IMG/VR virus record: IMGVR_UViG_3300028536_000160
Span: 1-22,735 of that record
Source: a virus
DNA length: 22,735 bases
Reading direction: 5' to 3' (one strand)
Part shown: piece after piece, positions 2,857-11,674 of the stretch
Position numbering within the stretch: the stretch's first letter is position 1
How the letters are laid out: every line of letters starts with the position of its first letter
The notes under the pieces: model-generated
Seen by the model: only the letters and a program-made list of their open reading frames with translations
What the model was told of the DNA's origin: nothing
The model's database searches: none
Position numbers and translations under genes: made by a program

Positions 2857-3552
2857 ATGAAAGCATTTCACGGCAAGCAGGAAGTCAAGGATTTCTACAT
2901 TGCTCGCATCAAAGCTCATCGCGCAGCGGATGAGATCGTTAAAGGCCAATACTGGGAAAAAGATGACGATGGCGTATTCAGAGGTTGCGCGATCGGCTGT
3001 TCGCTGCATACTGCAGACCACAATGCCATCGTGAAAGAGTGGGACTTTCCGCTTTCACTGGGATATCTGGAAGATTGCATCTTCGAGAATCTTCCTCAAG
3101 AGCTAGCTCTGGACTGGCCTTTGCGTTTCGTTTCCGCGCCTAAACCAGGAAGCGATTTATCGCATATAGTCGATCACTTCCTGATCTGGGTGCTCACCGA
3201 TGGCGTACATGGAGTAATCCGTTTTGCACAGAAAGACAATGAGCGTGCTGCCATTCAAGCAGTCTCCGATTTGTATGTAAGAAAAGCTGCAAATGATAAT
3301 CCCAGCCCGGAAGAGTGGGATGCTGCCGAGGATGCTGCCGGGGCTGCTGCCAGGGCTGCCGAGGATGCTGCCGGGGCTGCTGCCAGGGCTGCCGAGGATG
3401 CTGCCGGGGCTGCTGCCGAGGATGCTGCCAGGGCTGCCAGGGCTGCCGGGGATGCTGCCGGGGCTGCTGCCGGGGCTGCTGCCTGGGCTGTCAGGGATAC
3501 TGCCTACATTTCATTCGCCGACAAACTTATCGAACTTATGAAAGCAGCGTAG
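2857..3552 (+). CDS. Phage protein with conserved N-domain and alanine-rich repeat tail
   Basis: 231 residues. Residues 1-145 form a globular domain (MKAFHGKQEVKDFYIARIKA; GCAIGCSLHTADH; FENLPQELALDWPLRF) that I recall from other uncharacterised phage proteins. Residues 153-212 are an Ala-rich repeat with units like EDAAGAAARAA (11 residues), followed by a short amphipathic C-terminus (FADKLIELMKAA). In related proteins the tail often also consists of Ala/Arg/Trp repeats, so a long helix is likely. The function is unknown. The DNA coding for the tail is a 33-base tandem repeat, so tail length may vary by slippage. A GAGG stands about 8 bases before the start. Confidence 0.75.
   Translation: MKAFHGKQEVKDFYIARIKAHRAADEIVKGQYWEKDDDGVFRGCAIGCSLHTADHNAIVKEWDFPLSLGYLEDCIFENLPQELALDWPLRFVSAPKPGSDLSHIVDHFLIWVLTDGVHGVIRFAQKDNERAAIQAVSDLYVRKAANDNPSPEEWDAAEDAAGAAARAAEDAAGAAARAAEDAAGAAAEDAARAARAAGDAAGAAAGAAAWAVRDTAYISFADKLIELMKAA
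3328..3420 (+). repeat. 33-base tandem repeat coding for alanine-rich helix
   Basis: The unit starts GAGGATGCTGCCGGGGCTGC and runs 33 bases. Two complete copies (3328-3360, 3361-3393) and a partial third (3394-3417) are nearly identical; shorter variants of GCTGCC(A/G)GG continue to about 3494. Because each unit is a multiple of three, copy-number change would keep the frame. Confidence 0.85.
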
Positions 3553-5190: not shown

Positions 5191-6951
5191 TTAACCTCTT
5201 TCGATTAAGTTGATTCTTGAAATTGTCTGTTCCTGATTCTGGGTATACTTCATCGATCGCGGCATGATCTGCCCGGTCGATTTTGTCTTTACGAACAAAG
5301 TCTTGATGCTTTCATCGGAAGTATCGGCTTCAAGCCGGAACACATAGTCAGCCCATGCCTCGATGGAAGTGGAACCCTTTACCCCACCAGCCTTGTTCGT
5401 ATGGTGGATCACGCAAATCTGGGAGCCGGATTGCTGCGCCAGTTCATCGAACTTGCCCATGACCGGAGTCATATCCGTTGAAGAATTTTCTTCCCGAGAA
5501 TGAATCTTGTTTAAAACGTCGATCACTGTGAACTCTATAGAACTCATTTTTAGCCATTTAGCCATTTCATCAAGGTCCTTTTGGTTGTCGATGCGGAAGC
5601 GGCTCGACTGTTCGATGGTGTTGACGAAGATGTTGCGGTCGATGTCGCTCTCCTGCAATCCATGCCCTGCGGCCAGTTGATTAAGGCGGCGCTTTACCAT
5701 CACGGGCCCATCTTCGCGGCTGATAATGGCAACACGCACTGGAGATATTGGCCTGCCCATGCACAGAAAGCTTTGCCCGGTGCTGATGCAGAGCGCCAGC
5801 TCGAGGAATAACAGGCTTTTCCCCGTCTTTGGCGGAGCGACTACCAGACCCCTGGTATCGCGCTCTATGAATCCAGGCACAATCCAGTTTCCGCCGTTTT
5901 CCAGATGCCCCCGCAATTCCGAGGGGCGGACCAGCAATGTGCGCTCAGCCAACTCATTTCCGTTGACGATACTGAATTTTGGCTGCGGCAGAGTCCAGGG
6001 AATGCAGCCCGGCAGAAGCTTGATGAACTCTGAAAACTCGTGTCCGGCAAGATAATCGCTAATATCTTGTCCCTCGGCTACCGGGAGCGCTAGTTTGAAA
6101 AGCTTCAGGGCATAGGAAGCTATATCCGTACAAGCATCTTCGTCGTGCTGCCGTCCGGGACCATCATTGTCGCCCAGCTTTATGACGACTTTCCCCTGAA
6201 AGAACTTCCCATAGCCAAATTCCTTCTTCCAGGCCAGCGCACCGCCCGAATTCGTGGTAACTGCCACGCGGTCTAAAATCAACGCGCCAAACTTGAATCC
6301 GCCCGCATTTTTGATGTGCTGCGCCAGCGCTCGCGACAAATCGTCCGCATTGCGCTCTCCCTCGACCACGAAGACTAGGGATGACTGTATGACATCAGCC
6401 AGACGATACAAGACGCGCCTTACCCCCATAGCGCCCCAGCAGCGGCCATTCTGGCAGAGGTTCTCACAAGCATCTGAGCCTTTGCAGCGGCATGGGAAGT
6501 CTGGAGGGGTAACTTTACGGCCATCGTTGTACCGAAAACGCCATACGGAAAACTGCTCTTCGCCCAGCTCGTCCGCATAGAGATACCGGGCTTGAGCTTT
6601 CGAGCGGTCCCATCCGCCTTTGGCCTGAGCGGGGACTTCAGGGTGAATGCGTTCGAGCAGCGGAGTCCCAAGTATCGCGGAAATCGATTCTTTGACGATC
6701 CCGAACTCGGGGACGACGCCTCTTTCGCGCTTGAGCATCTCCTGCTCGAAGGCGAAAAGATTCTTTCCCCCAGCTCCGCATGCAAAGCACTTGAACTGGC
6801 CCGTTGAAGTATCGACTTTCAGGGAGTTGGGGTTGTCTCCGCCATGAATCGCGCATTGCGAACGCCAGTCAAATCCCTTTGAGTGGTGAATCTTGTGCCC
6901 ATCAAGCCGGGTGCGGTAGTAGTGCTCGATCAAATCCTGGGTGAGGTTCAA
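5191..6951 (-). CDS. Phage primase-helicase (zinc ribbon, TOPRIM, RecA-like ATPase)
   Basis: A 586-residue replication enzyme expected to lay primers and unwind DNA at the phage fork. Residues 33-58 have the CHC2-type zinc site (C33, H36, C55, C58 in QCAIHGGDNP and FKCFACGAGG). A TOPRIM domain shows VVEGERNADDL (E198) and KLGDNDGPGR (D261, D263). The C-terminal RecA/RepA-like ATPase (AAA_25 type) has Walker A APPKTGKS (372-379), Walker B FTVIDV (D478) and CVIHHTNK (516-517), the usual sensor. An unusual cluster of five cysteines (154-171) lies between zinc ribbon and TOPRIM. The start is TTG, overlapping the stop of the DUF1376 gene, with AGAGG seven bases before. Fusion of primase and helicase is common in phages. 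Confidence 0.92.
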   Translation of the reverse strand: MNLTQDLIEHYYRTRLDGHKIHHSKGFDWRSQCAIHGGDNPNSLKVDTSTGQFKCFACGAGGKNLFAFEQEMLKRERGVVPEFGIVKESISAILGTPLLERIHPEVPAQAKGGWDRSKAQARYLYADELGEEQFSVWRFRYNDGRKVTPPDFPCRCKGSDACENLCQNGRCWGAMGVRRVLYRLADVIQSSLVFVVEGERNADDLSRALAQHIKNAGGFKFGALILDRVAVTTNSGGALAWKKEFGYGKFFQGKVVIKLGDNDGPGRQHDEDACTDIASYALKLFKLALPVAEGQDISDYLAGHEFSEFIKLLPGCIPWTLPQPKFSIVNGNELAERTLLVRPSELRGHLENGGNWIVPGFIERDTRGLVVAPPKTGKSLLFLELALCISTGQSFLCMGRPISPVRVAIISREDGPVMVKRRLNQLAAGHGLQESDIDRNIFVNTIEQSSRFRIDNQKDLDEMAKWLKMSSIEFTVIDVLNKIHSREENSSTDMTPVMGKFDELAQQSGSQICVIHHTNKAGGVKGSTSIEAWADYVFRLEADTSDESIKTLFVKTKSTGQIMPRSMKYTQNQEQTISRINLIERG

Positions 6952-7742
6952 TGGGTTGCCTCTTTGTCGATGAATTGCATGACAGAAGGCACATCTGCCC
7001 AGTATTCCGCTCCGCTTACCTCATGCCAGACTACAGGAGGCTTTGGGATTAAGCCCTCGTCGTTATATCTTTCCTTATTGAACCAAGTCGCAGGATAGGG
7101 CACGTACTGCTCTTCCTTGTTTTCATCGAAGACTTGCTTCTTATATTTTTCAACTCTTGGAAGAAGCTCTCCAAAAGGAATTTTCTTGAGCGCTTTGACG
7201 ATTGCCCGCAATGCATCTGTCTTCCCCACATGCTTCGGGTAAGCTTCATAGACCGCGTTTGCCTGTTCGAGCAATTTAGAATTAGATATATGTTTTTCTT
7301 TAGAAGAAGAAGAAGCAAAAGAAGAGTTCGATTTTGGTTCAACCAAATCACCAAGGTTGGTTGAAGGTTGGTTGAAGGTTGGTTCAGATTTTATCTTGTT
7401 ATTTCTCCTAGACTTACCAGACCTCTTACCAGCTTCAGAGGATTTCTCCTTCCAAATACGCTGTTTTTCTCTTTCAATTTCTAAACGAGGATGTACCAAA
7501 CGTGAACCATCGTTCGAACATTGGTTGAAGCAATTGCGAACCACCGTTGAAGCTTGGTTCGAACAATTTTTAAGAAGTCTGGATAGCTTTTCGGGATCAG
7601 AGGGAATACTTCCTTCTCTCCAGCAATAAGCTAAGGCTCGAATATACGCACCCTCTTCTTCAAGAGTCATAAGCTGTACATTTTCATCGGCCAGATAATC
7701 GGCAGCATAAAATTGAAATGCAGGAGATTTAGAAGCTATCAT
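6948..7742 (-). CDS. DUF1376 (YdaU-like) replication initiator-like protein
   Basis: 264 residues. The N-terminal DUF1376 domain (about 6-95) is recognised by AFQFYAADYLADENVQLM and TLEEEGAYIRALAYCWREGS. This family is found upstream of phage replication genes and is thought to act in origin recognition. A long polar, Ser/Asn-rich linker (100-155) follows, then a C-terminal helical domain (VYEAYPKHVGKTDALRAIVK ... PATWFNKERYND) of a type seen in phage replication proteins. The start at 7742 is supported by GAGG and an ATGA overlap with the upstream gene. The linker-coding DNA contains iteron-like repeats, suggesting that the origin lies inside the gene, as in lambda O. The initiator role is inferred from context and family. 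Confidence 0.82.
   Translation of the reverse strand: MIASKSPAFQFYAADYLADENVQLMTLEEEGAYIRALAYCWREGSIPSDPEKLSRLLKNCSNQASTVVRNCFNQCSNDGSRLVHPRLEIEREKQRIWKEKSSEAGKRSGKSRRNNKIKSEPTFNQPSTNLGDLVEPKSNSSFASSSSKEKHISNSKLLEQANAVYEAYPKHVGKTDALRAIVKALKKIPFGELLPRVEKYKKQVFDENKEEQYVPYPATWFNKERYNDEGLIPKPPVVWHEVSGAEYWADVPSVMQFIDKEATH
7334..7564. repeat. Iteron-like repeats, candidate replication origin
   Basis: Within the linker region of the DUF1376 gene, the plus strand carries TTGGTTGAAG at 7357-7366, 7368-7377 and 7521-7530, with variants TTGGTTCA (7379-7386) and TTGGTTCGAAC (7554-7564), plus a perfect palindrome TTGGTT-C-AACCAA (7334-7346). Three copies recur every 11 bases, about one helical turn and not a multiple of three, so the repetition is not explained by protein repeats. 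AT-rich DNA follows (ATTTTATCTTGTTATTTCT, near 7388-7406). This matches the iteron-plus-AT-rich layout of phage origins inside initiator genes. Origin function is inferred. Confidence 0.6.
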
Positions 7743-11397: not shown

Positions 11398-11674
11398 AGC
11401 ATTCGAGCAGTTGCGGAAGCGGAATGGACAGACAGTAACTTGGAAGTTTGCTATTCCCGTTTTCCTTATTGTTGCAGTTATTCTCTGGGTCGTGCATAGC
11501 GAATACAAAGAATGCCAGCGCCAACTCCGCATAGCCACGGCTTACCGGGATATTCTACGCACCACTGGATATGAATGCACGGTATCGCCAGAGCCGGATC
11601 GCGTGGTCGACTGCATCGAGATGGAGCAAAAGGCTGTACATCCTATTCCGTTGGTTGAAGGGATTGAACAATGA
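11390..11674 (+). CDS. Single-pass membrane protein
   Basis: 94 residues from the ATG at 11390, whose start overlaps the previous stop; in-frame ATGs at 11357 and 11369 are alternatives. A basic N-terminus (EQLRKRNGQTVTWK) is followed by one membrane helix (19-36, FAIPVFLIVAVILWVV) and a charged domain with four cysteines outside. The positive-inside rule places the N-terminus in the cytoplasm and the C-terminal domain in the periplasm. The shape resembles inner-membrane spanins, but it is far from the endolysin and no partner lies next to it, so this is not claimed. Confidence 0.6.
   Translation: MSRAFEQLRKRNGQTVTWKFAIPVFLIVAVILWVVHSEYKECQRQLRIATAYRDILRTTGYECTVSPEPDRVVDCIEMEQKAVHPIPLVEGIEQ

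Follow-up and report, generated by a model that had tools for sequence, protein, structure and literature searches.

Short direct repeats arranged in two arrays (A and B) inside a phage gene for a DUF1376 protein were found to be an element of the DNA itself, beyond what chance would produce. The arrays occupy set positions in the gene, are constrained at the DNA level, differ in sequence from clade to clade and are linked in type to the N-terminal domain of the encoded protein. The most likely interpretation is that they form a lambda-O-like replication origin located within the gene of its own initiator. In that interpretation, binding by DUF1376, melting of an adjacent tract, recruitment of helicase and firing of the origin are inferred.

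Pfam still lists DUF1376 as a domain of unknown function, and no link between DUF1376 and an origin was found in the literature searched, in passages bearing on DUF1376. If the interpretation is correct, the family can be assigned a function, every member carries a recognizable binding site, and many phage and prophage origins would become locatable from sequence alone. The relative YdaU of the Escherichia coli Rac prophage makes the origin reading testable in laboratory E. coli.

Repeat arrays in the DUF1376 gene

The window, meaning the whole stretch of DNA analysed, is a 22.7-kb virus record that is classed as linear and is probably a fragment. Its minus-strand early block comprises an endonuclease-like gene, ERF, a YqaJ exonuclease, DUF1376 and a primase/helicase. 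The features concerned are as follows.

6948..7742, minus strand: DUF1376 gene, putative initiator; 264 aa, ATG at 7742; Pfam and PHROG matches
7473..7718, minus strand: DUF1376 domain (Pfam, residues 9–90), proposed to bind the origin; iteron type goes with this domain rather than with the C-terminus
7503..7566, minus strand: array B, iteron copies TTCGAACCAA, TTCAACCAA and TTCGAACGATGGTTCA, inside domain-coding DNA; conserved in contigs L013 and L014
7334..7388, minus strand: array A, 11-bp tandem iterons AACCAACCTTC with palindrome TTGGTTCAACCAA, in linker-coding DNA (TRF)
7302..7325, minus strand: short-period tract (TCT)n, Ser-rich linker; proposed unwinding/loading tract (TRF)
7250..7349, no strand: AT-rich stretch next to the iterons (AT 0.65; whole window 0.49)
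7023..7265, minus strand: C-terminal module, exchangeable between relatives; phrog_270 match; unrelated to the C-terminus of L014
5191..6951, minus strand: primase/helicase gene directly downstream; AAA_25 (4e-30), DnaG-type zinc ribbon (9e-6), PHROG DNA primase/helicase (1.7e-33)

Membership of the DUF1376 family (PF07120) was accepted. The Pfam match of the window protein (28.9 bits, E=1.6e-6) falls slightly under the cut-off of 30.1, and the relative L014, with an N-domain 75% identical to the window's, passes at 30.4 bits. The window gene also matched the PHROG families 'primosomal protein' (5e-28) and 'replication initiation protein' (1e-14), the phrog_270 (replication initiation protein) match covering residues 98–233, and the C-terminus of L014 matched the O-like phrog_678. 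No near DNA match to the window was found among named phages, and no relatives were found among viral contigs when sought via the primase/helicase.

Exact copies of TTGGTTGAAG are located at 7357, 7368 and 7521, with TTGGTTCAGA at 7379 and TTGGTTCGAA at 7554. An earlier note on the window had named these five positions and a palindrome at 7334, and all were confirmed, the palindrome occupying 7334–7346; the description of the 7379 and 7554 copies as close variants is true of their first 6–7 bases. TRF reported a perfect 11-bp array at 7353–7384 (2.9 copies, 100%) and a second, looser repeat at 7504–7568. The note had also placed the repeats in the linker-coding part of the gene, which is correct for array A; array B, approximately 175 bp away, lies inside the DUF1376 domain code. 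Along the minus-strand gene the order is array B (7566–7503), array A in the linker and then, directly following array A, the (TCT)n tract (7325–7302), which the note did not mention.

The repetition is not a by-product of repeated amino acids, as the earlier note had argued from an 11-base spacing out of codon phase. The three 11-bp copies occupy three different codon phases, and the longest perfect run at out-of-frame lags, 21 nt at lag 11, was significant against synonymous-codon shuffles of the gene (p=0.0005). The window has eight matches to the pattern TTGGTTSRA where 0.62 would be expected, and 0 of 100 shuffles reached eight; six of the matches are in arrays A and B, one is elsewhere in the DUF1376 gene and one is at 11651. 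This last is an exact TTGGTTGAAG outside the gene (11651–11660, plus strand) and is probably there by chance. The highest-scoring tandem repeat of the window lies in a plus-strand ORF (2857–3552), where a GC-rich repeat of 33-bp period at 3322–3504 corresponds to an Ala/Gly/Asp-rich stretch, yet it is in codon phase.

AT content is approximately 0.63 around the repeat site compared with 0.49 for the whole window, and the claim of AT-rich DNA beside the repeats was upheld. GC skew, which had been proposed as a check on the origin, did not support the site: the minimum for the window is at about 10.66 kb, at a divergent gene block, and window skew is confounded by gene orientation. Among four complete genomes, the skew minima were not at the site in two and were 2.5–3.7 kb away in the other two.

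Conservation as DNA and layout across the family

The earlier note had also proposed checking whether the iterons are kept at the DNA level where the protein varies. They passed this check, on the evidence of a comparison of the window with L013 and L014, synonymous suppression in 20 genes, untranslated iterons in contigs L015–L017 and a bipartite layout across the family. A pattern scan returned one other contig, whose DUF1376 gene has both arrays, the tract, a 75% identical N-domain and an unrelated C-terminus. Between the window and its nearest relative with array A, codons at shared residues differed in 1 of 35 cases within the arrays and tract versus 41 of 71 elsewhere (p=8e-9). In array B, codons were identical at every residue shared with L013 and L014 (codons 61–75), and in array A none of the 17 codons shared with L014 had changed.

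Among 20 close relatives, the observed to expected ratio of synonymous diversity was 0.37 in array B and 0.28 in array A plus the tract, compared with 1.15–1.58 elsewhere; the suppression was confined to these two regions (permutation p=0.0004). One of two control ORF groups also gave a synonymous valley (p=0.0006), and for this reason the permutation p-value was not taken alone. The strength of the case lies in both valleys coinciding with the arrays.

In L015–L017 a stop codon falls inside array A and the repeats run on untranslated; of the three, it is in L015 and L017 that the tract most clearly persists untranslated. Beyond these untranslated repeats and tract, the three contigs have in common a noncoding block similar to TTTTGGTGGCAAAACATCG.TTTTT (L015:3381-3560, L016:3366-3540, L017:3393-3570), which may be another element of the origin or a promoter. 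Across 16 related contigs AACCACCCTT occurred 51 times, all but one of these within a single cluster of <250 bp per contig.

The homologue set comprised 80 viral and 8 genome loci. For 56 non-redundant DUF1376 genes, repeats were counted over the initial 480 nt, and a gene was considered significant if no more than 1 of 40 synonymous shuffles reached its repeat count. By this measure 25 of the 56 genes were significant, and 131 of their 134 copies were located at nt 130–260 or 320–450 (59 in B, 72 in A and 3 elsewhere), mostly at a spacing of 11–12 bp. An excess of at least two copies over the synonymous null was observed in 17/56 family members and in 2/175 neighbouring ORFs. The repeat word differs by clade (AACCACCCTTGC, TTCAACCAACC, AACCATCGTTG, GCTCAGCTATG, CAACGRCCGTT and others), and within one gene arrays B and A match each other beyond both the cross-gene (p=3e-8) and the synonymous-shuffle (p=4e-8) nulls. 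Repeat-count significance was not reached in about half of the 56 non-redundant members, and a clear array was not seen in TM3, Baldr, AzoCd, L031 and L068. The DUF1376 gene region of one IMG/VR contig, 2895832707_000002 (L024), is the same as that of the Hymenobacter rigui genome (L094), and this relative therefore has a cultured host; another DUF1376 gene is present in Granulicella aggregans (L095).

A tandem tract of period 3–9 (mostly 6, 3 or 7) was found at gene nt 360–500 in 59 of 70 family members, its sequence varying widely, with examples such as (ACAGAT)n and (AACCAG)n. Serine codons in the tract were TCT or TCA in 228/257 cases against 220/605, a bias not used as proof because it is compatible with slippage. 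Slippage in the coding linker could be the source of part of the tract. A role for the tract as DNA is favoured by the 7-bp and untranslated cases, and its function in unwinding or loading is inferred. A DnaA-trio reading of the triplet tract is not claimed, the match to that pattern being only partial.

Iteron type is linked to the N-domain and not to the C-terminal module. A repeated 8-mer was shared by 61% of gene pairs with N-domains ≥55% identical and unrelated C-termini, against 5%, equal to background, of pairs with N-domains <45% identical and related C-termini. Part of this co-inheritance reflects shared descent, given that the N-domain code contains array B and borders on array A. 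The linkage is consistent with recognition by DUF1376 and is no proof of it; in the absence of binding data, we infer that the domain recognizing the iterons is probably DUF1376. A PDB sequence search with the DUF1376 domain gave nothing significant among solved structures.

Comparison with lambda O and the proposed origin

In bacteriophage lambda, ori lies in gene O (Phage_rep_O, PF04492), and the iterons are within the initiator's own gene, as in the window. The four annotated lambda iterons are at nt 348–433 of O and array A is at approximately nt 345–410. In O an N-terminal domain of ~115 aa precedes the iterons, and AT-rich DNA and then a C-terminal module come after them; the DUF1376 gene has this layout too. 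The lambda O analogy drawn in the earlier note thus held in iteron position and modular C-terminus. As marks of a lambda-O-like system we took iterons in the initiator gene at the domain–linker boundary, an AT-rich tract beside them, and a helicase loader or helicase/primase as neighbour. All were met, although for the AT-rich tract (0.63–0.65 against 0.49) unwinding is not shown. The neighbour is the primase/helicase in the window, and in relatives the genes downstream of DUF1376 encode DnaC-like loaders, replication protein P, helicase or DnaA-like proteins. The DnaA-like annotation occurs in two Rhizobium phages (L112:2273-2848, L122:1971-2429), the former matching the DnaA DNA-binding domain (Bac_DnaA_C).

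The differences from lambda are that the N-domain of the window protein is DUF1376, that the gene has two arrays, one of them inside the domain code, that the repeats are spaced at 11–12 bp against lambda's four 18-bp iterons, and that DUF1376 genes add a tandem tract of mostly 3–7 bp period. Sequence kinship between DUF1376 and the lambda O N-domain was not detectable (hhalign probability 0.2%), and DUF1376 proteins had no match to PF04492, so that membership of Phage_rep_O was not met. The DUF1376 proteins YdaU, L014 and PfDIW6 have C-termini matching the O-like family phrog_678. Gifsy-2 O, the C-terminus of which is 47% identical to that of YdaU, has intragenic iterons too (7 copies), but its N-domain is Phage_rep_O and its iterons differ in sequence (ATCCCCGAAAA). 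In this known architecture DUF1376 thus stands where the origin-binding domain would be, with no homology to it detected.

YdaU is itself a DUF1376 protein (2.7e-26), and Rac has an active origin named oriJ (PMC3945230). The linker of ydaU carries TGTTCAAACA-type repeats, reached by 0 of 60 synonymous shuffles and weaker than those of the window. In five E. coli strains these repeats were not better conserved than their surroundings, the divergence being too small.

In the proposed mechanism, the DUF1376 domain would bind the 11-bp iterons in both arrays, within the gene that encodes it, and bring the two arrays together. The adjacent AT-rich short-tandem tract would open, and the exchangeable C-terminal module would recruit the helicase machinery, which in the window would be the product of the neighbouring primase/helicase gene. 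The origin-binding role suggested for DUF1376 in the earlier note is supported to this extent, with binding and origin firing both inferred. A bolder reading, against which we lean slightly on present evidence, is that lambda-O-like initiators have, in DUF1376, a second recognition domain unrelated to the first. The origin would be bipartite and in-gene: of two arrays ~175 bp apart, one would run through the very code of the binding domain, and after them would come a short-period tract acting as a separate unwinding/loading element in which repetition is kept while sequence is free.

Alternative explanations

The best-surviving alternative, although unlikely, is that the repeats are operator sites through which the DUF1376 protein or another phage regulator controls transcription of the replication genes, with replication starting elsewhere. 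The repeats do behave like clustered protein-binding sites, and regulators are often encoded just upstream of DUF1376 genes. However, the repeats sit 180–400 nt into the gene and not at a promoter, their position matches lambda ori rather than an operator, and 59 of 70 genes have a tandem tract after the repeats.

An RNA-level element of the early transcript, in the form of hairpins or of a pyrimidine-rich site for loading, acting in attenuation, Rho loading or antitermination, is considered very unlikely. Inverted copies could pair, synonymous suppression cannot separate DNA from RNA, and the coding strand of the tract is often rich in pyrimidines. Against this, an Rfam search gave no significant family match, the copies are direct 11–12 bp repeats, and in other members the (ACAGAT)n or (AACCAG)n tract is not pyrimidine-rich.

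It is also very improbable that the repeats are a by-product of protein repeats and microsatellite slippage in a disordered linker, without function as DNA. The tract periods, mostly 3 and 6, are those that slippage in a coding linker would give, but the iterons are out of codon phase, array B is within domain code, synonymous sites are suppressed, repeats persist untranslated in L015–L017 and 7-bp tracts exist. Lastly, a recombination hot spot for swapping phage C-terminal modules, suggested by the C-termini of the window and L014 differing from a point just beyond the iterons, is very unlikely, since it leaves array B, the clade-specific repeat sequences and the regular 11–12 bp spacing unexplained, and any conserved origin would be just as likely to have module swaps around it.
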